Source: Pseudomonadota bacterium
GTDB lineage: Bacteria; Pseudomonadota; Gammaproteobacteria; Acidiferrobacterales; Acidiferrobacteraceae
DNA length: 54,986 bases
NCBI GenBank assembly: GCA_021777335.1
Contig: JAJYDT010000009.1
Coordinates: forward strand, 1 to 54,986
Direction: 5' to 3'
Shown: in pieces, positions 27,839-37,338 of the stretch
Layout: the number at the start of each line of letters is the position of its first letter
Position numbering within the stretch: position 1 is the first letter of the stretch
The notes under the pieces: generated by a model
Seen by the model: the letters and a program-made list of their open reading frames with translations, nothing else
What the model was told of the DNA's origin: nothing
Database searches by the model: none
Made by a program: the position numbers and the translations under genes

Positions 27839-29647
27839 TTATTCCTGGCTCGGAAGCGGAACCATGGGCTGCAATGGCAGATCGGTGTCGCTCAGCTGGC
27901 GGGGCAGCGCGATGATAAAACAGGTACCGCGCCCAGCCTGAGATTCTACAGCAATATGGCCTCCGTGCGCCTCGACCATCTCGCGCACGATCGCCAGGCC
28001 CATCCCCGCTGAGCCTTGCTTGTCGTTCTTGGCGCCCTGTGTATACCACTCGAAAATGAGCGGGATTTCATCTTCTGGAATGCCGGGTCCCGTATCGGCG
28101 ATCTCAATGCGCACCTCGCTTTTGTTCGTAAACGACGCTGACAAAGTGATCTTGCCAGTGGCAGGGGTATGGCGCAGAGCGTTCGACAGCAGGTTACTGA
28201 ACACCCAACCAAGCTTGACAGGATCCGCATTGATTGGCATCTCGGGGATACAGGAAACCATTAGACTGACGTCCTGTGCCTCCGCTTGCAGTCTGAACGA
28301 ATGCGCCTGCCGGCGCAGGAACCCACAGAGCTCGAATTGCTTTAGTTCCATACGGGTACGGGTTGCGTCCAGCCGCGATACATCGAGCAGATCCTCAACA
28401 AGTGCAGTCAGCTGCCCCACCTCCTCCTTCCCAACGTCGAGAAGCTGACAAACATGCTCCGGATAGCGTTCCTGGGTGGCGGTCTCATGGAGCATGCCGA
28501 TGCTGAGGCTGAGGCTGGTGAGCGGGGTTTTGAGCTCGTGCGACAGGGTAGCGAAGAGCTGCGCGCGCTGCTGCTCTGCATGTCTGAGCTCAGTCACGTC
28601 CTGCAATACAACGATAAGCCCGATGATATGCCGCTGTTTATCACGGAATGGTACGGTTTTGAGAATGTATGAATGTAAACGGCCACGAATGGTCAGAGAA
28701 AACTCGTTCCGGCTGTACTGGGGTTCATCCTGGTCTTCGTGGCGAAGAGACATAAGCGCATTGCGGAAGTTCAGATAGAAACGGCTCGCGACATTGAGGT
28801 CGTTGATATTTCGGCCAAGGAGTTCCCCTGGGTCGGTCTGCAGAAGCATGCCGGCCATGAAATTGACGTGCAGGACCTTACCCTGTCGGTCAAGCAGGAT
28901 CAATCCATCATCTATGGAGTTGATCAACGCATCGATCTTGGCGTTCTCGTACAGGAGCTTGTCGACACTCGCTCGCTCGTACCGTTCAAGCCGGCGCACA
29001 AGGCCATTGAACTCGCGCGCAAGCTCATCAAACTCCTGGATTCCCGAGCGATCGAGTTCGCGGTGTTTACCTGCCGGGTTCAGCTCATGGACACTGCGCG
29101 CGAGTTGACGCATGGGCCTTATCGTAAGGCGCACCATCCATACGGCAAACGCAAGCATGATTGCAAGCGATCCTGCAAGGCCGAACGCCCCAAAAAGCGC
29201 AAGTTCCCTGATAGACCACATCGCACGACCCGCGCGCATGGCAGCTGCCTGGTGGATCAGTTTTCTGAGTGTTCTGATGTCACCGCCCAGCACTGCAAAA
29301 TGTGCGGGGCTGGGTTCCTTGATATAAGCCCACCAGGCAAGCTTTGCGTTCTCAAGTACTGCACGCTGCGCGCTGCTCGTTACCTGGCCTTCGGCATTTG
29401 TGAGTGCCTTTAGGAATCGGGCACGGGCGCGGGTTCGGACTGCAGTGCCATGGGCGAGGCGGTAAGCGAGACCTGAGTACTCCATCTTGTTGATCGAAGC
29501 CATCACATGCGCATTTGTCTCGAGGATCTCGCCTGTAATTTCACCAAGATCGCTGATTCTCCTAATCAAGAACCCCCCAAGTGTGGCCATCAGCAGCACG
29601 GCGAAGAGGATTGCCACGATCAGTCGGTTATTGAGTGATTGGAACAT
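27839..29647 (-). CDS. Membrane PAS histidine kinase replacing the KdpD kinase half
   Basis: 602 residues from ATG 29647 with AGGA upstream. Transmembrane segments at about 8-28 and 147-173 enclose a periplasmic domain of about 120 residues. HAMP (174-226), PAS (235-352), HisKA with H370 (FATLSHELKTPL) and HATPase_c (NLLSNALRHTP, DTGPGIPEDE, GMGLAIVREMVEAHGG) follow. It lies 7 bases after the truncated kdpD and 4 bases before the sigma-54 response regulator, its evident partner. Unlike true KdpD it has no DUF4118 four-helix membrane module, so the sensed signal is probably different or is supplied by the separate KdpD N-terminal protein. Confidence 0.95.
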   Translation of the reverse strand: MFQSLNNRLIVAILFAVLLMATLGGFLIRRISDLGEITGEILETNAHVMASINKMEYSGLAYRLAHGTAVRTRARARFLKALTNAEGQVTSSAQRAVLENAKLAWWAYIKEPSPAHFAVLGGDIRTLRKLIHQAAAMRAGRAMWSIRELALFGAFGLAGSLAIMLAFAVWMVRLTIRPMRQLARSVHELNPAGKHRELDRSGIQEFDELAREFNGLVRRLERYERASVDKLLYENAKIDALINSIDDGLILLDRQGKVLHVNFMAGMLLQTDPGELLGRNINDLNVASRFYLNFRNALMSLRHEDQDEPQYSRNEFSLTIRGRLHSYILKTVPFRDKQRHIIGLIVVLQDVTELRHAEQQRAQLFATLSHELKTPLTSLSLSIGMLHETATQERYPEHVCQLLDVGKEEVGQLTALVEDLLDVSRLDATRTRMELKQFELCGFLRRQAHSFRLQAEAQDVSLMVSCIPEMPINADPVKLGWVFSNLLSNALRHTPATGKITLSASFTNKSEVRIEIADTGPGIPEDEIPLIFEWYTQGAKNDKQGSAGMGLAIVREMVEAHGGHIAVESQAGRGTCFIIALPRQLSDTDLPLQPMVPLPSQE

Positions 29648-29654
29648 CTTTTTC

Positions 29655-30824
29655 CTAGCCCCTTGGATGCTCAGACAAAGGGCGTGCAGAAGTATCAACA
29701 ATCTGCACGTCAACACCATCGGTATGCATCAGGAATTCGAGCGTCAACCACTTAAATAGCCGAAGGCGCCACCAGGAGCGCGGATTCTTACCGAATATGA
29801 CCATCGTGATGCCGCGGTCTTCGGAAAAACGCACCAAGGCATCAAGCACGCTGTTCGATTCCAGTATTGCGAACTGCGCGCCCAGATCTTTTGCTACTCG
29901 CTCAAGCTTCAAGTATTCCTGTCGCCCGCGGGAAAGTGCCTGATGCGGTGCCTGATCATTGCGTACGACGGTTACGGCAAACCAGTCAGCATTCAGGCGA
30001 CCGGCGATCCGTGCGCCACGGCGCAGCAGAACGATGGAACTGTCGGTTCCGTCGGGATCGAGACACACCATAACGCGTTCTGGACGCCTCAGCGGTCCAG
30101 CCTCGCGCCTCAGGCGCTGCTCCTCTGTCTGATACTCGACCTTGCTCGCGACTTCGCGCAGCGCCATCTCGCGCAGGGCGGCGAGATTCTCTGGCGTAAA
30201 AAATCCTCGGAGCGCACTTTCAATTTTCTCAGAGGGGTAGATCTTACCCCGGCGCAGGCGCTCACGATGGTCCTCAATACTGAGATCAATATTGATAATC
30301 TCGTCGGCGAGTCCAAGGATACGATCGGGGACAGTCTCGCGCACCTTGATACCTGTCAGGCGTTCTACGTAGGGATTGAGGCTCTCAATATGCTGTATGT
30401 TGATCGCGGTGATGACATTGATCCCCGCCTTGAGGATATCTTCGACGTCCTGATAACGTTTAGCGTGTTCGGTACCAGGGATATTCGTATGCGCGAGCTC
30501 ATCCACGATTGCGACCTGCGGGCGGCGTTCAAGAATCTCCGGCAGATTCATCTCCCCCCACTCGCGCCCCTGATAGCTGACCTGTCGTAGAGGAATCTGC
30601 TCAAGATCACCGATCTGCGCACGCGTCTCGGCACGCCCGTGCGTCTCGACATAGCCGATCTTGACATCGACGCCTTCGGCCTTAAGCCTGCGTCCTTCGA
30701 GCAGCATCTGGTATGTTTTCCCAACCCCGGCGGCCGAACCGATATAGATCTTAAGGCGTCCGGCAGGACGCTCCTTGAGCACCCCAAGGATGTCTTCTGG
30801 CACAGCATCTTGGGTTTCCGCCAT
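29655..30824 (-). CDS. kdpD: Truncated KdpD: sensor and Usp domains only
   Basis: 389 residues from ATG 30824. The KdpD N-terminal domain (about 20-230) has a Walker A motif GSAAGVGKT (29-37), followed by GYVETHGR and the conserved ELAHTNIPG and KRYQDVEDIL. A universal-stress-protein domain follows (about 250-380, VMVCLDPDGTDSSIVLLRRGARIA). Membrane, HisKA and ATPase domains are absent; the gene ends with a normal stop and the kinase function lies in the next gene. Short KdpD proteins of this kind are known in cyanobacteria and deinococci. No clear ribosome binding site is seen. A 256-base gap separates it from kdpC. Confidence 0.93.
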   Translation of the reverse strand: MAETQDAVPEDILGVLKERPAGRLKIYIGSAAGVGKTYQMLLEGRRLKAEGVDVKIGYVETHGRAETRAQIGDLEQIPLRQVSYQGREWGEMNLPEILERRPQVAIVDELAHTNIPGTEHAKRYQDVEDILKAGINVITAINIQHIESLNPYVERLTGIKVRETVPDRILGLADEIINIDLSIEDHRERLRRGKIYPSEKIESALRGFFTPENLAALREMALREVASKVEYQTEEQRLRREAGPLRRPERVMVCLDPDGTDSSIVLLRRGARIAGRLNADWFAVTVVRNDQAPHQALSRGRQEYLKLERVAKDLGAQFAILESNSVLDALVRFSEDRGITMVIFGKNPRSWWRLRLFKWLTLEFLMHTDGVDVQIVDTSARPLSEHPRG

Positions 30825-31080
30825 GGGGACAGAGGAGTCAGGGATTCGCAACAGGCGACCCGGGTATCGGCGGCGCCGTGCGGCGTTCAGCCCGATACTG
30901 AAGAGGGGTAGGGCGGGTCACTCGTTCCCTATTGTCTTGTCCAATGTTACTGCTCAACAATCCCACCGCCTTCCTGACATCCCGGCGTATAAGCGAGGCC
31001 AGGTTACCGGCTGTGTCGCCGACGATAATAATCGCTATTGTAGCATAGCGCTGCCTGTGCCCCTCACGTGCCCAGAGTCA
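30825..31080. other. 256-base gap between kdpC and kdpD with a stem-loop
   Basis: No gene is seen. An exact inverted repeat CGCTAT/ATAGCG (31033-31038 and 31045-31050, 6-base loop) lies 31 bases after the kdpC stop on the transcribed strand and is followed by an AT-rich stretch without a T-run. It may attenuate or protect the structural-gene mRNA before the regulatory genes. No clear promoter was found for kdpD. Confidence 0.35.
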
Positions 31081-31665
31081 CTAATGCACCTCGGGGGATG
31101 TCTTCATGAGCGCCAGATTAAGGGTCAGCACGTTCACATAGGGCTCTCCAAAAAGGCCCAGCAGTGGCCTATGGAGGTGACGCGCGATGAGCTGGTCCAT
31201 GGCATCTGATGGCAGACCGCGCGCACGCGCGATCCATCGTGCCTGCAGATAGGCGTTGGCGGGACTGATGTCAGGATCGAGGCCAGATCCCGAACTTGTG
31301 ATCATATCCGAAGGCAGCCTGACGCCGCGAAGACCCGGGTGCTCCTTACGCAACCGCATACTGCGTTGAATAAGATGCTGCTTGAGCCGCCGACTCATTG
31401 GCCCGAGATTTGAGCCCCCAGACGTCAAAGGATCGTCATTGACCACCGAAGGACGACCATGGAACCAGCGTGCACCCAGAAAACGCTGACCAATGAGGCG
31501 TGAGCCTACAATCTTTCCACTCACCTGCACGAGACTGCCATTGGCCTGGAACGGGAACATGACCTGGTTAATGGCAACCTCGATGGCCGGGTAGGCAAGC
31601 CCGCACAGGATCCAGGTTGCAAGTGTGAAGCGCACGGCGGTAGCGAACGATTCAAGACGCGACAT
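31081..31665 (-). CDS. kdpC: Potassium-transporting ATPase C chain
   Basis: 194 residues with one N-terminal transmembrane segment (about 10-32) and a periplasmic domain. GSRLIGQRFLGARWFHGRPS near 53-72 and GSGLDPDISPANAYLQARWIARARG are the family signatures. KdpC assembles with KdpA and KdpB and stabilises the complex. The ribosome binding site is AGGAG, 6 bases before ATG. It starts 9 bases after kdpB. Confidence 0.95.
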   Translation of the reverse strand: MSRLESFATAVRFTLATWILCGLAYPAIEVAINQVMFPFQANGSLVQVSGKIVGSRLIGQRFLGARWFHGRPSVVNDDPLTSGGSNLGPMSRRLKQHLIQRSMRLRKEHPGLRGVRLPSDMITSSGSGLDPDISPANAYLQARWIARARGLPSDAMDQLIARHLHRPLLGLFGEPYVNVLTLNLALMKTSPEVH

Positions 31666-31674
31666 GAGCTACTC

Positions 31675-33753
31675 CTACCGTAAAAAAAGACCGAGCACGA
31701 GGTCGATGAGCTTAATGCCGATGAAAGGCGCCACGAGCCCGCCGAGCCCGTAGATCAGTATATTACGCCTTAACATAGCGTCCGCACTCACAGGCTTGAA
31801 CCGTACACCACGCAGCGCGAGCGGGATCAGCGCGGGGATGATCAAGGCATTAAAGATAAGGGCCGAAAGAACTGCGGTCTCAGGGGTCGCGAGATGCATA
31901 ACGTTGAGTGCGGCGAGGCCGGGGAGGGCTGTCATAAAAATCGCAGGTAACATGGCGAAATACTTGGCGACATCATTGGCAATGGAGAAAGTCGTAAGGG
32001 CTCCGCGGGTGATCAGCAGCTGTTTTCCAATCGCGACGACGTCGATAAGTTTCGTCGGGTCAGAATCGAGATCGATCATATTGGCAGCCTCCTTCGCCGG
32101 CGTTGTACCTGAATGCATGGCAAGTCCGACATCCGCCTGGGCAAGCGCAGGGGCGTCGTTGGTTCCGTCCCCGGTCATGGCAACGAGTCGACCCTTAGCC
32201 TGCTCCGAGTGGATCACACCGATCTTGTCTTCGGGCTTCGCCTCTGCCACGAAATCGTCGACCCCGGCCTGCTCGGCAATCACACGAGCCGTCACCGGAT
32301 TATCGCCTGTGACCATTATCGTCTTGATGCCCATGCTGCGCATATGCGCAAAACGCTCTCGCATCCCGGGTTTTAGAACATCAGATAGCGCAACAACACC
32401 AATAATGTCCCCATCAATGGCAACCGCGAGTGGAGTCGCCCCTCTGCGCGCCACAACAAGCGCAGCCTCCTTGAGCGCTTCAGACGCAGCAGTCGCGTAG
32501 AGTTCGGTCGCGTAGTTTGCGATCGCGGTCACAGCCCCCTTCCGTGCCTTGTGCCCGTCTGGGAAGTCAGTTCCGCTCATGCGTGTTTCTGCAGAAAACT
32601 CGATGCCGCGCGCCTTGTCCCATGAGGGTTCATGTTTGGCCCCTTTGGCCACGGCGAGCGCCACGATCGAACGGCCCTCCGGGGTATCGTCATACCACGA
32701 GGCCGCCAGTCCGGCGCTCGCAATATCATTGTCGGTGTGGCCTGGCAGACTGATGAATTCCGTCGCCTGGCGGTTACCGATCGTGATTGTGCCAGTCTTA
32801 TCCAGAATGAGCGTCTGGACATCTCCTGCCGCCTCGACGGCACGCCCTGACATGGCCAGCACGTTGAAGCGGGTCGCGCGATCGATGCCAGCAATCCCTA
32901 TTGCCGACAGAAGCGCGCCGATCGTAGTGGGAATCAACGCAACCAGAAGGGCGATTAGTGTCGCGACATCCATGTGCACGTGCAGGAAATCAGCCATCGG
33001 CATAAGAGTGGCTACCACCACCAGGAATATGAGGCTTAGAACTGCGAGCAACACCGTCAGCGCTATCTCGTTTGGTGTCTTTTGACGGCGCGCCCCTTCG
33101 ACGAGATGGATCATGCGGTCTAAAAACGTGTGTCCCGGATCAGCCGACACTTTGAACACGAGCCAGTCTGACAGGATTTTCGTTCCGCCGGTCACGGTTG
33201 AGGCCATGTCTGTCCCTGGTTCTTTGAGGACCGGCGCGGATTCTCCGGTGATCGCGGATTCATCCACAGAAGCGATGCCCTCAACCACCTCACCGTCGGT
33301 GGGGATGATGTCCCCTTTTTCAACACGTACAAGATCACCCTTGCGAAGGTTTGTGGCGGACACGATCGAGAGGGTACCATCGCTAGCTATTTTTCTCGCG
33401 GTCACGTCGTCCTTCGTCTGTCGCAGGGCATCGGCCTGCGCCCGGCCACGTCCCTCAGCGAGCGCTTCGGCGAAGTTTGCGAACCACACGGTCAGAACGA
33501 GGATCACCGTCACAGTGCCGTTGTACCAGCGCCCTACCTGTGAAGGACCAAAAAGACCCGGGTTCACAGTGAGGGCGCCCGTAATGAACATCCCTGTCCA
33601 GACGATGAACATCACAGGATTTCGTACCTGAACGCGCGGGCTGAACTTTTTCAGCGAATCCATGAGCGCCCGTCCGATGAGGCCCACCGTCCGTGCACGA
33701 TAGGCTTCCACCCTGCGTGCCATATTTGGATGTGATGCCGTGGATCCGGTCAT
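31675..33753 (-). CDS. kdpB: Potassium-transporting P-type ATPase B chain
   Basis: 692 residues. The phosphorylation motif LDKTGT has D318. The actuator motif TGES is at 169-172. MVTGDNPVTARVIAEQAGVDDFVAEAKPEDK and GDGTNDAPALAQADVGLAM complete the P-type ATPase set. KdpB hydrolyses ATP to drive potassium uptake through KdpA. Membrane segments lie near 46-66, 80-92, 235-255, 265-290 and in the last 120 residues. An AGGA precedes the ATG start, and the gene lies 12 bases after kdpA. Confidence 0.98.
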   Translation of the reverse strand: MTGSTASHPNMARRVEAYRARTVGLIGRALMDSLKKFSPRVQVRNPVMFIVWTGMFITGALTVNPGLFGPSQVGRWYNGTVTVILVLTVWFANFAEALAEGRGRAQADALRQTKDDVTARKIASDGTLSIVSATNLRKGDLVRVEKGDIIPTDGEVVEGIASVDESAITGESAPVLKEPGTDMASTVTGGTKILSDWLVFKVSADPGHTFLDRMIHLVEGARRQKTPNEIALTVLLAVLSLIFLVVVATLMPMADFLHVHMDVATLIALLVALIPTTIGALLSAIGIAGIDRATRFNVLAMSGRAVEAAGDVQTLILDKTGTITIGNRQATEFISLPGHTDNDIASAGLAASWYDDTPEGRSIVALAVAKGAKHEPSWDKARGIEFSAETRMSGTDFPDGHKARKGAVTAIANYATELYATAASEALKEAALVVARRGATPLAVAIDGDIIGVVALSDVLKPGMRERFAHMRSMGIKTIMVTGDNPVTARVIAEQAGVDDFVAEAKPEDKIGVIHSEQAKGRLVAMTGDGTNDAPALAQADVGLAMHSGTTPAKEAANMIDLDSDPTKLIDVVAIGKQLLITRGALTTFSIANDVAKYFAMLPAIFMTALPGLAALNVMHLATPETAVLSALIFNALIIPALIPLALRGVRFKPVSADAMLRRNILIYGLGGLVAPFIGIKLIDLVLGLFLR

Positions 33754-33765
33754 AAAGCAGTTTCC

Positions 33766-35499
33766 TCAGGAGACAAGATGCGCGTGCATCGCGAAGTACT
33801 CGGCGATCGGCCCGAGCACAAGCGCCGGGAGGAAGGTGAGCGCGCCGACGAGCAGAATGGTCGCTAGCCAGAAAGTCCCGAACAGCAGGGTATCTGTGCG
33901 CAATGTGCCGACTGTCTCTGAAACAGCCGGTTTCGCGGCGAGCGAGCCGCCGAGCGCGAGCATGAAGATGATCGATACGTAGCGTCCAATGAGCATCACC
34001 ACGCCAAGGGCTATGTTATACCAGGGAGTGTTTCCAGAAAGCCCGGCAAATGCTGAGCCGTTGTTCGCCGCCGTAGACGTGAACGCATAGATCACCTCCG
34101 TCAGGCCGTGCATCGAGGTGTTGCCAAGCGCCGAGACCCCATAGGGTGCCATGAGTGACCAAGCTGCGGGCACCAGGATGATAAGCGGGTGCACAAGCAG
34201 CGCGAGCGAGGCGAGGAGAATCTCACGCTTTTCGATCTTCTTGCCGAGAAATTCGGGTGTTCGCCCGACCATAAGTCCGGCGATGAACACCGCGAAAATC
34301 CCGTAAATGAGAAAGTTGATCAGGCCGACGCCCTTGCCCCCGAATACGCAGTTCAGCATCATCAGTACGAGCGAGACCATGCCGCCCACCGGGGTATAGC
34401 TGTCCAGCATTGAGTTCACGGTGCCTGTGGTGAAGGCAGTGCTGACCGTATCAAACATCGCGCTCTGTGTGTTTCCGAAACGGACCTCCTTGCCGACCAT
34501 ATTGCCGCCAGGCTGCCCGCCCCCGTGTACGATTGCCACCCCCGCGCCGGCAAGCACCGGCGTTCCGCCCTGTTCCGCTGACACCGCGATAAACAAAGCT
34601 GCCATCAGCATGATCGCCATGACCCCGTAGATTACCCGTGCAAGCCGTGGGTTACGCACCATGCGGCCAAATGCTACGACGAGCGACATTGGCGTCAGCA
34701 TCATCAGGAGCATCTCAAGCACGTTCGTGATGATGGTTGGATTCTCGAATGGGTGCGCAGAATTGGCATTGAAGAATCCACCGCCGTTCGTGCCAAGGTG
34801 CTTGATCACCTCGAGCGAGGCGACAGGGCCCATAGGAATGTGCTGCAGGCCACCTTGGACGAGATGCGCGATCGCTTGGCCAGTAAAGGTCTCGGGCGAT
34901 CCCTGCCATACCAGCACCGGTGTCAGGATCAGGCAAGGCAGGAGAAAAACGCGTGTCAAGGCGCGTACGAAGTCGCGGTAGAAATTGCCGAGGTTCCGGC
35001 CACCGTCGGCCGCAGCAAGCGACCGAAAAAAGGCAACTGCGACGACAAGCCCGGTCGCGGCTGATGTGAACATGGGAAATGTGATTGCGGCCGTCTGGCT
35101 GAAGAGCGACAGCGTTGACTCACCACCGTAATTCTGCCAGTTGGTATTCGTGATGAAACTTGCCGCAGTATTGAAGGCGAGCTCCGGATTCACACCCGCA
35201 AAATGGAGCGGGTTCAGTGGCAAGTGTCCCTGAAACATCAGGATCACATAGATCAGGACACCCATGAGGACGTTGGTGAGTAGCATATGGACCGCGTAGT
35301 CCTTCCAGTCCATAGGGCGTGAAGTCTGCGCAGGACCAATGATCCCGTAAAGCAGCCGATCAACGGGATCGAGAAGGGGATCGAGAAACGTACGCTCACC
35401 CATGAAGACGTGCGCGAGGTAGCGGCCAAACGGCACGCTGAGCGATGCGGCGATCAGGACAATGGCAACAATCTGCCAGAAGGCGTCAGCGGTCATCAT
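33766..35499 (-). CDS. kdpA: Potassium-transporting ATPase A chain
   Basis: 577 residues from ATG 35499 (MMTADAFWQ); the longer frame crosses kdpF. KdpA forms the potassium-selective pore with four pseudo-repeats of the MPM type. Selectivity-filter regions are seen as TNGGGFFNANSAHPFENP and STAANNGSAFAGL. Ten hydrophobic segments fit the family. kdpF ends 5 bases upstream. The order kdpF-kdpA-kdpB-kdpC is standard. Confidence 0.98.
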   Translation of the reverse strand: MMTADAFWQIVAIVLIAASLSVPFGRYLAHVFMGERTFLDPLLDPVDRLLYGIIGPAQTSRPMDWKDYAVHMLLTNVLMGVLIYVILMFQGHLPLNPLHFAGVNPELAFNTAASFITNTNWQNYGGESTLSLFSQTAAITFPMFTSAATGLVVAVAFFRSLAAADGGRNLGNFYRDFVRALTRVFLLPCLILTPVLVWQGSPETFTGQAIAHLVQGGLQHIPMGPVASLEVIKHLGTNGGGFFNANSAHPFENPTIITNVLEMLLMMLTPMSLVVAFGRMVRNPRLARVIYGVMAIMLMAALFIAVSAEQGGTPVLAGAGVAIVHGGGQPGGNMVGKEVRFGNTQSAMFDTVSTAFTTGTVNSMLDSYTPVGGMVSLVLMMLNCVFGGKGVGLINFLIYGIFAVFIAGLMVGRTPEFLGKKIEKREILLASLALLVHPLIILVPAAWSLMAPYGVSALGNTSMHGLTEVIYAFTSTAANNGSAFAGLSGNTPWYNIALGVVMLIGRYVSIIFMLALGGSLAAKPAVSETVGTLRTDTLLFGTFWLATILLVGALTFLPALVLGPIAEYFAMHAHLVS

Positions 35500-35504
35500 G
35501 GGGG

Positions 35505-35585
35505 TCAGAACCTTTCTGGAAAGATGATGGCGTAGACAAGATAGATGGCGATGGCCACCACAAGTGCAAGCAGCAGATCGATCAT
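35505..35585 (-). CDS. kdpF: KdpF small membrane subunit
   Basis: 26 residues: MIDLLLALVVAIAIYLVYA followed by IIFPERF, a single transmembrane helix with the usual LVYA-II-PE-F ending of KdpF, the lipid-like stabiliser of the Kdp complex. GGGAGA precedes the ATG. The ATG overlaps the stop of the small upstream gene by 4 bases (ATGA), and kdpA begins 5 bases after its stop. Confidence 0.9.
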   Translation of the reverse strand: MIDLLLALVVAIAIYLVYAIIFPERF

Positions 35586-35689
35586 CGGGTCTCCCTCTTG
35601 CCTGGGGCAATCACCCATTGGGAGAAACGCACAAGAGCCATAAGGAAGGCGTAGATCCCAAGAAACAGCGAGAGCATGAGTAGCGCCAT
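35582..35689 (-). CDS. 35-residue membrane peptide, first gene of the kdp operon
   Basis: 35 residues from ATG 35689, with AGGAG 6 bases upstream. The sequence begins MALLMLSLFLGIYAFLMAL, one predicted transmembrane helix (about 2-20), then a short polar tail with a WVIAPGKRETR end. Its stop overlaps the kdpF start by 4 bases, so it is translationally coupled to the potassium pump genes. It lies 68 bases downstream of the sigma-54 promoter, so it is the first cistron. Similar unnamed tiny proteins precede kdpF in other proteobacteria to my knowledge. It may be an extra small subunit or a leader that tunes kdpF translation. Confidence 0.7.
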   Translation of the reverse strand: MALLMLSLFLGIYAFLMALVRFSQWVIAPGKRETR

Positions 35690-35756: not shown

Positions 35757-35771
35757 GCAATCTCTGTGCCA
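35757..35771 (-). promoter_or_regulatory. Sigma-54 (-24/-12) promoter of the kdp operon
   Basis: On the minus strand the sequence reads TGGCAC-AGAGA-TTGC, followed by TTTT. It matches the -24 element TGGCAC and the -12 element TTGC with the exact 10-base GG-to-GC spacing. Transcription would start near 35745, 56 bases before the first small gene. A sigma-54 response regulator encoded at the end of the same locus makes the site meaningful. Confidence 0.85.
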
Positions 35772-35816: not shown

Positions 35817-35832
35817 AACGTCCGGGGACGTT
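35817..35832. promoter_or_regulatory. Palindrome at an enhancer distance from the sigma-54 promoter
   Basis: AACGTCC-GG-GGACGTT is an exact 7-bp inverted repeat centred about 80 bases upstream of the predicted kdp start, a normal position for a sigma-54 activator site. The nearby activator lacks a DNA-binding domain, so another protein may bind here, or the site may be incidental. Confidence 0.45.
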
Positions 35833-36036: not shown

Positions 36037-37338
36037 ATGGCAGATAAGGTGCAGTCAAAGGTCCCCACCGTGATAGTGATTGGTGCGGGATTTGGGGGGC
36101 TTAATGCCGTGCGTTTCTTGTGCGGTCAGGATTTTAACGTGGTACTCGTCGACCGCCACAATTATCATCTGTTCCAACCGTTGCTCTATCAGGTAGCGAC
36201 CGGCGCCCTCGAGGCGCAGGCCGTCGCCGCCCCGGTCCGCCAGTTGCTACGACGCTGGCGTAACGTGCGTTTTATCCTCGGTCACGTGGAGTCGGTCGAT
36301 TGCGTGGCTCGTGTAATAAAGATCGGCGACGAAGCAATCACCTATGACTATCTGGTCGTGGCAGCAGGGAGCGTTACCAATTTCTTCGGCATCGCTTCAG
36401 TCATGAACCACGCGCATGACCTGAAAGGATTGTGCGGGGCGGATGACCTGCGCTCGCATATCCTGCGCATGGTAGAAATGGCGACACAAGCGCCAGATGC
36501 CGACCGGCACAATAAACTACTTTCGTTTGTGGTGGTCGGGGGCGGTGCGACCGGAGTAGAGTTCGCTGGAGCACTCGCCGAACTTTTGCACCGGATCCTG
36601 CCAAAGGATTTTCCGGACCTTGCGTTGCACCGTGCGCAGGTGTCGATCATCCAGGCGGGCGAGTACCTCCTGCCGTCATTCCCGCGCACGCTACAAGAAT
36701 ACGCGCGGCAACACCTTGAAACCCTTGGCGTTACGGTCCGGCTGAACACACGCGTGCGCGATTATACCGGAGATCAGGTCGTGTTTCAGGATGGTTCCGG
36801 TATGTATGCCTCCACTTTGATCTGGGCGGCGGGAGTACAGGCCGAGTCACTCGCCCGAGGGTTGCCTGGGAACAAGCAAAGAGGCGGGCGTGTTATGGTT
36901 TCAGCTGACCTCAGTCTGCCGGATTATCCGGAAGTATTTGTGATTGGCGATCTTGCCTATGGCGAGCAAGATGGCCACCCATGGCCTCAGACTGCGCCGT
37001 TTGCGATCCAAAGCGGCCGCCATGCCGCGTGCGTGATCCGCGCCCGGTGCGCGGGGCGCCGAGTTGCACGCTTCCGGTTTCGGGACCAAGGCGCAATGGC
37101 AGTATTAAGCCGTTTCCGCGCCGTGGCCTCGCTGCGCCGTCCGGCATGGAATATCCAGGGTTTCCCGGCATGGGTCAGCTGGCTATTTCTGCATCTGCTG
37201 TACTTGGTCGGGTTTCGTAACCGTATCCTCGCCCTGTTTGACTGGGGCTTCGATTACCTGGGAAATAACGCGGCAGTGCGACTGATTATGGATCGAACAT
37301 CGCACGGGATCACCGTGGTACACCGCGACGCCAAATAA
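36037..37338 (+). CDS. Type II NADH dehydrogenase (NDH-2)
   Basis: 433 residues. FAD-binding GAGFGG at 16-21 (VIVIGAGFGGLNA) and the second dinucleotide fold (FVVVGGGATGVEFAGAL) near 165-181 are complete, with the family strings HLFQPLLYQVATG and VIGDLAY. The protein oxidises NADH and reduces quinone at the inner membrane without pumping protons. The C-terminal stretch (RPAWNIQGFPAWVSWLFLHLLYLVGFRNR) is the usual amphipathic membrane-binding part. Start ATG has GGGGA upstream. It lies upstream of the sugar-oxidation genes with a 60-base gap, and could feed on the NAD(P)H they make. Confidence 0.92.
   Translation: MADKVQSKVPTVIVIGAGFGGLNAVRFLCGQDFNVVLVDRHNYHLFQPLLYQVATGALEAQAVAAPVRQLLRRWRNVRFILGHVESVDCVARVIKIGDEAITYDYLVVAAGSVTNFFGIASVMNHAHDLKGLCGADDLRSHILRMVEMATQAPDADRHNKLLSFVVVGGGATGVEFAGALAELLHRILPKDFPDLALHRAQVSIIQAGEYLLPSFPRTLQEYARQHLETLGVTVRLNTRVRDYTGDQVVFQDGSGMYASTLIWAAGVQAESLARGLPGNKQRGGRVMVSADLSLPDYPEVFVIGDLAYGEQDGHPWPQTAPFAIQSGRHAACVIRARCAGRRVARFRFRDQGAMAVLSRFRAVASLRRPAWNIQGFPAWVSWLFLHLLYLVGFRNRILALFDWGFDYLGNNAAVRLIMDRTSHGITVVHRDAK

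Follow-up and report, generated by a model that had tools for sequence, protein, structure and literature searches.

Which sigma factor and which activator control Kdp, the potassium pump for emergencies, in this member of the acid-loving Acidiferrobacteraceae? Kdp is the textbook model of control by KdpD and KdpE, with promoters of the sigma-70 type. For the 54,986-nt stretch of contig JAJYDT010000009.1 analyzed here (hereafter the window), a sigma-54 promoter had been predicted upstream of kdp, together with an NtrC-type activator encoded at the end of the same locus.

Organization of the kdp locus

The operon is read leftwards, in the order leader ORF, kdpF, kdpA, kdpB, kdpC, short KdpD, histidine kinase, and NtrC-type regulator. 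The following features were assigned:

35757..35771, minus strand: sigma-54 -24/-12 promoter element TGGCACAGAGATTGC, followed by T; exact consensus, intergenic, kept before kdp in relatives
35582..35689, minus strand: small ORF MALLMLSLFLGIYAFLMALVRFSQWVIAPGKRETR, 35 aa, with one predicted membrane segment; kept before kdpF in the family
35505..35585, minus strand: kdpF (TIGR02115, over cut-off)
33766..35499, minus strand: kdpA (PF03814, TIGR00680)
31675..33753, minus strand: kdpB (TIGR01497)
31081..31665, minus strand: kdpC (PF02669, TIGR00681)
29655..30851, minus strand: short KdpD, sensor domain and Usp-like region, no kinase (PF02702); start codon uncertain
27839..29719, minus strand: separate membrane histidine kinase, HAMP-PAS-HisKA-HATPase, 626 aa
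26668..27834, minus strand: NtrC-type response regulator, receiver and AAA+ sigma-54-interaction domain with GAFTGA, without Fis/HTH domain

The pump genes kdpF, kdpA, kdpB, and kdpC are present in order and all intact. The 35-aa ORF overlaps kdpF, and its window copy was without NCBIfam match. A membrane ORF of 30–36 aa is kept before kdpF in both kdp copies found in the family (window, L048, L053, L061, and L148) and may encode an extra small pump subunit. No full-length KdpD sensor kinase is encoded at the locus, and the regulator of the operon is NtrC-type, not an OmpR-type KdpE. KdpD is split into a non-kinase sensor and the separate histidine kinase. The closest NCBIfam model to the short KdpD (398 aa) is NF038185, a KdpD-like non-kinase sensor, with a score below the cut-off of that model. 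The short KdpD gene follows kdpC after a gap of 230 nt, across which co-transcription is presumed.

The gene order of kdp, short KdpD, and regulator is syntenic across the family loci. Among 369 genomes sampled from the class, a short KdpD of this similarity was found only in Acidiferrobacteraceae, the other matches being full-length KdpD or frameshifted genes. Two short KdpD-like matches from other members of the class (G084 and G229) were considered as split systems and rejected, as their reading frames, the only basis for this judgement, suggest frameshifted full-length KdpD. Bacteroidota commonly have a short KdpD. The window's genome also contains a 3.4-kb contig (L025, G000:C136) with the end of kdpB, kdpC, and a longer KdpD; its GC content is 64% versus 57.5% in the window, and it represents either a second kdp locus or a contaminant.

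The -24/-12 element upstream of kdp

The pattern TGGCAC-N5-TTGC matched exactly once in the whole window, at TGGCACAGAGATTGC (35771–35757, minus strand), which bears out the predicted element and its exact spacing. The site (35771–35756 reads TGGCACAGAGATTGCT on the minus strand) lies in the gap between a divergent oxidoreductase gene (36037–37338, plus strand) and the 35-aa ORF, and is oriented towards kdp. It has the GG at -24 and the GC at -12 of a sigma-54 promoter at the fixed spacing, and its score is 18.0 bits out of a possible 19.4 under a weight matrix for sigma-54, itself only an approximation made from the published consensus. The distance from the element to the start of the 35-aa ORF is 67 nt; the 68 bases to the first kdp cistron given in the original prediction are right for this ORF (35689–35582). 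One copy of RpoN is encoded in the window's genome. A search for Rfam riboswitches returned nothing at the gathering threshold.

By chance, 0.21 exact matches are expected per window, and at least one match was obtained in 18 of 100 shuffles, so that the exact string alone is weak to modest evidence. Within the 340-nt region before kdpA, the element scored higher than almost every shuffle (p ~0.0005). Genome-wide, the exact pattern occurred 20 times compared with seven times for the reversed control; most of the 20 copies lie inside ORFs, the exceptions being the kdp site and two others.

The family-level relatives of the window's genome include Acidiferrobacter, and most of the genomes compared are MAGs. 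These relatives were searched, as had been proposed, for the combination of this promoter before kdp and an NtrC-type regulator, with a positive outcome: GGCA(C/T)-N5-TTGC preceded the operon in 15 of the 16 Acidiferrobacteraceae genomes that could be assessed, from three genera, a count that excludes G001 and G009, which are cut by contig ends. The remaining genome, G017, had no recognizable -24/-12 site before kdp. RpoN was identified in 17 of 18 family genomes. The site lies 205–248 nt before the first kdpA and scores 13.1–18.0 bits in ten genomes (window, G003, G004, G005, G006, G007, G008, G010, G012, and G015), with shuffle p values of 0.0005–0.011 for the eight tested; in G007, it heads a kdp copy 22 kb away from the copy beside the regulators. 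Five others (G002, G011, G013, G014, and G016) have the site 500–900 nt before kdpA with scores of 11.8–19.0 bits, the G002 site being weak (11.8 bits). At L058 (G016) and L060 (G002), the DNA between site and kdpA has, as judged by eye, the look of a leader ORF and kdpF that have decayed, which suggests that the first kdp copy has been lost there.

Across 12 heads that were aligned, no variation occurred in GGCA, TTGCT, or the spacing, and the mean agreement was 11.2 of 12 inside the element versus 6.1 outside. As the alignment was anchored on the pattern, which fixes part of this invariance, it is the shuffle tests and the controls that carry weight. Among canonical kdp control loci, none of 30 valid loci had a site of at least 13 bits within 400 nt; 31 were scanned, and L216 (>13 bits) was left out because this locus is cut and the scanned region is not truly upstream. 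A chance match would accord with the expected rate per window given above, but position and sequence are kept across three genera and the control loci have no such site; this explanation is strongly disfavoured, and we take the element to be a genuine sigma-54 site.

A first alignment, made upstream of the orthologous kdp copy, had indicated that the site is absent from all relatives. This reading was rejected: in many relatives a second kdpFABC lies in front of the orthologous one, and the site stands at the head of this front copy. Tandem kdpFABC copies, with KdpA ~46% identical, were observed in L048, L049, L050, L053, L054, L061, and L148, the first copy being headed by the sigma-54 site, and single-copy relatives seem to have lost this first copy. 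An element around CGTGGTAGATTTTGCCG is kept upstream of the regulator-adjoining kdpA copy in L044, L052, L053, L058, L059, L061, L148, and L149, and is perhaps another, non-sigma-54 promoter. The regulator-adjoining copy thus has an element of its own, and the regulators are therefore not always under sigma-54 in the relatives; where two copies are present, they may be made from another promoter while sigma-54 serves the first copy. In the window species, the whole operon seems to depend on one promoter. A third, unlinked kdpA copy in L237 and L238 (G007 and G008) has a single in-frame TAG in each of the two genomes; 470–491 nt upstream of it lies a -24/-12-like site of 13.8 bits.

The main kdp promoter could also be of the sigma-70 or another type, with the -24/-12 element minor or decayed. 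The CGTGGTAGATTTTGCCG element of many relatives would agree with this, as would the OmpR-type KdpE-like regulators used by all kdp systems described in the open literature searched. However, the CGTGGTAGATTTTGCCG element was looked for in the window and not found, a sigma-70 scan of the kdp intergenic region gave a single weak match, fewer than expected from shuffles, and the -24/-12 bases are invariant whereas their flanks are not. Such a promoter is accordingly regarded as quite improbable, and sigma-54 remains the preferred factor for the kdp promoter.

The regulator at the end of the operon

The window regulator (388 aa) has the features of a bEBP, with an AAA+ domain containing Walker A, Walker B, and GAFTGA, and a receiver with the phospho-acceptor Asp, all of which are kept in the family alignment. 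In the L035 (G008) regulator EAFTGA replaces GAFTGA, the sole such case among the aligned regulators. The C-terminal Fis-type domain that defines an enhancer-binding protein in the strict sense is missing from the window and 14 family loci: the window protein ends ~6 residues past the AAA+ lid, and the regulators of all 14 family loci where the gene is uninterrupted have the same end point (the fifteenth, L041/L057, has the regulator in two overlapping pieces and was left out of the count). Even at an E value of 1, Pfam HTH_8 was not found in the window regulator or in two relatives; the Ignavibacteria kdp regulator does contain it, as do four further activators from the window's genome. A fifth, at a contig edge, has a Fis-like terminal sequence as judged by eye, which brings the other sigma-54 activators with DNA-binding domains to at least five. 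A frameshift as the cause of the loss was rejected, because the regulators of independent genomes stop at the same place. The original prediction of an NtrC-type activator at the end of the locus was hence correct in type and position, but the protein lacks a DNA-binding domain throughout the family and therefore cannot act as an ordinary enhancer-binding NtrC.

Nor is the pairing of kdp with an adjoining NtrC-type regulator confined to this family: it recurs at many kdp loci of Bacteroidota, there with the Fis-type domain intact. More than 40 kdp-linked regulators from Bacteroidota and Ignavibacteria have a tail of 51–73 residues with a Fis-type domain. A CATTTTGA/TCAAAATG motif is frequent upstream of kdp in Bacteroidota (L065–L125) and is a candidate binding site for these Fis-domain regulators. 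A canonical -24/-12 element before Bacteroidota kdp was considered and rejected, as no enrichment was observed.

With at least five Fis-domain activators in the cell, the sigma-54 promoter might be activated by one of these, the kdp-linked regulator acting otherwise or only as a modulator. A perfect palindrome, AACGTCCCCGGACGTT, is found in the window at 35817–35832, ~45–60 nt upstream of the -24 box, and would speak for such an activator, but it is not kept in relatives, and no upstream inverted repeat common to the aligned heads was found. The missing repeat is what activation from solution predicts, although a missing motif is weak evidence. The synteny of the regulator with kdp and short KdpD in the family, and its intact activator motifs, also speak against another activator, which we judge unlikely. 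Activation of the kdp promoter by the operon's own regulator is thus the reading that we infer.

Proposed control of kdp and comparison with known systems

The promoter element and its conservation, the gene order, the domain content, the loss of the DNA-binding domain, and the presence of RpoN can be read directly from the sequences. It is likely that transcription of kdp is sigma-54-dependent, activated from solution by the regulator of the operon without a DNA-binding domain, and positively autoregulated. In this scheme, kdpFABC would be transcribed from the sigma-54 promoter at 35771–35757, with the NtrC-type response regulator encoded by the last gene of the same operon as putative activator. 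The signal would be low potassium, perhaps osmotic or acid stress, probably entering via the non-kinase KdpD fragment, which would steer the adjoining separate histidine kinase; the pairing of kinase and regulator, and the signal, are proposed from gene order. The kinase would phosphorylate the regulator, hexamers of which would contact, from solution and with no enhancer, the closed complex of sigma-54 RNA polymerase at the kdp promoter. With the genes for regulator, kinase, and sensor all downstream of this promoter, the circuit would be positively autoregulated in the window species.

Control of the pump seems to have shifted to sigma-54 in the window, the kinase having left KdpD and the activator having no DNA-binding domain. 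Control by sigma-54 would allow tight off/on switching. With somewhat less confidence, we favour the view that the pump is controlled via sigma-54 by a two-component system, with split KdpD and a regulator that lacks the DNA-binding domain, beside at least five ordinary enhancer-binding activators. If so, specificity would come from elsewhere than DNA binding, e.g., from promoter properties, local concentration near the regulator's own gene, or a partner protein. The locus offers a natural test of two points: the stimulus sensed by a KdpD fragment without kinase, and the means by which an activator can keep its specificity among others when it does not bind DNA. Acidophiles are believed to build up their inside-positive potential by importing potassium, and the apparent rewiring of kdp bears on acid tolerance in this way.

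The kdpFABC-kdpDE system of Escherichia coli has the same pump operon as the window, and in both a KdpD-type sensor domain and a two-component system are encoded alongside it. In E. coli, KdpD is one sensor kinase and KdpE is OmpR-type; the window differs in its split KdpD with separate kinase, its NtrC-type regulator, and its sigma-54-type promoter. For Acidihalobacter, one paper notes a sigma-54 regulator in the neighbourhood of kdp, in an arrangement with E. coli-like KdpDE. No earlier report of sigma-54-dependent kdp was found in the open literature searched, where absence is not proof. The kdp locus of Deinococcus radiodurans has a naturally split KdpD (KdpD-N), with a separate sensor kinase and a response regulator adjoining kdp (PMC5716572), and resembles the window in these respects. 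Its response regulator is KdpE-like (23.9% identity) and itself binds the kdp promoter, and, unlike in the window, no sigma-54 promoter or NtrC-type regulator is described (PMC5716572). The kdp loci of Bacteroidota and Ignavibacteria, with short KdpD (NF038185), separate kinase, and NtrC-type regulator, combine the same four kinds of parts at one locus. They differ from the window in that the regulator has a Fis-type DNA-binding domain and its gene is usually upstream of kdpF, and in that their upstream regions frequently contain the CATTTTGA/TCAAAATG motif and mostly no clear -24/-12 element.

The window regulator resembles FlgR of Helicobacter pylori, which is reported to activate sigma-54 transcription independently of an enhancer (PMC9696931), and CtcC of Chlamydia, from which the DNA-binding domain is absent (PMC7482065), compatible with activation from solution. 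All three are NtrC-type proteins without a DNA-binding domain, and FlgR and CtcC activate sigma-54 polymerase. Their targets are flagellar or developmental genes, whereas the putative target in the window is the kdp pump, and, unlike in these two cases, the regulator would act alongside at least five other activators of the same cell that do have DNA-binding domains.
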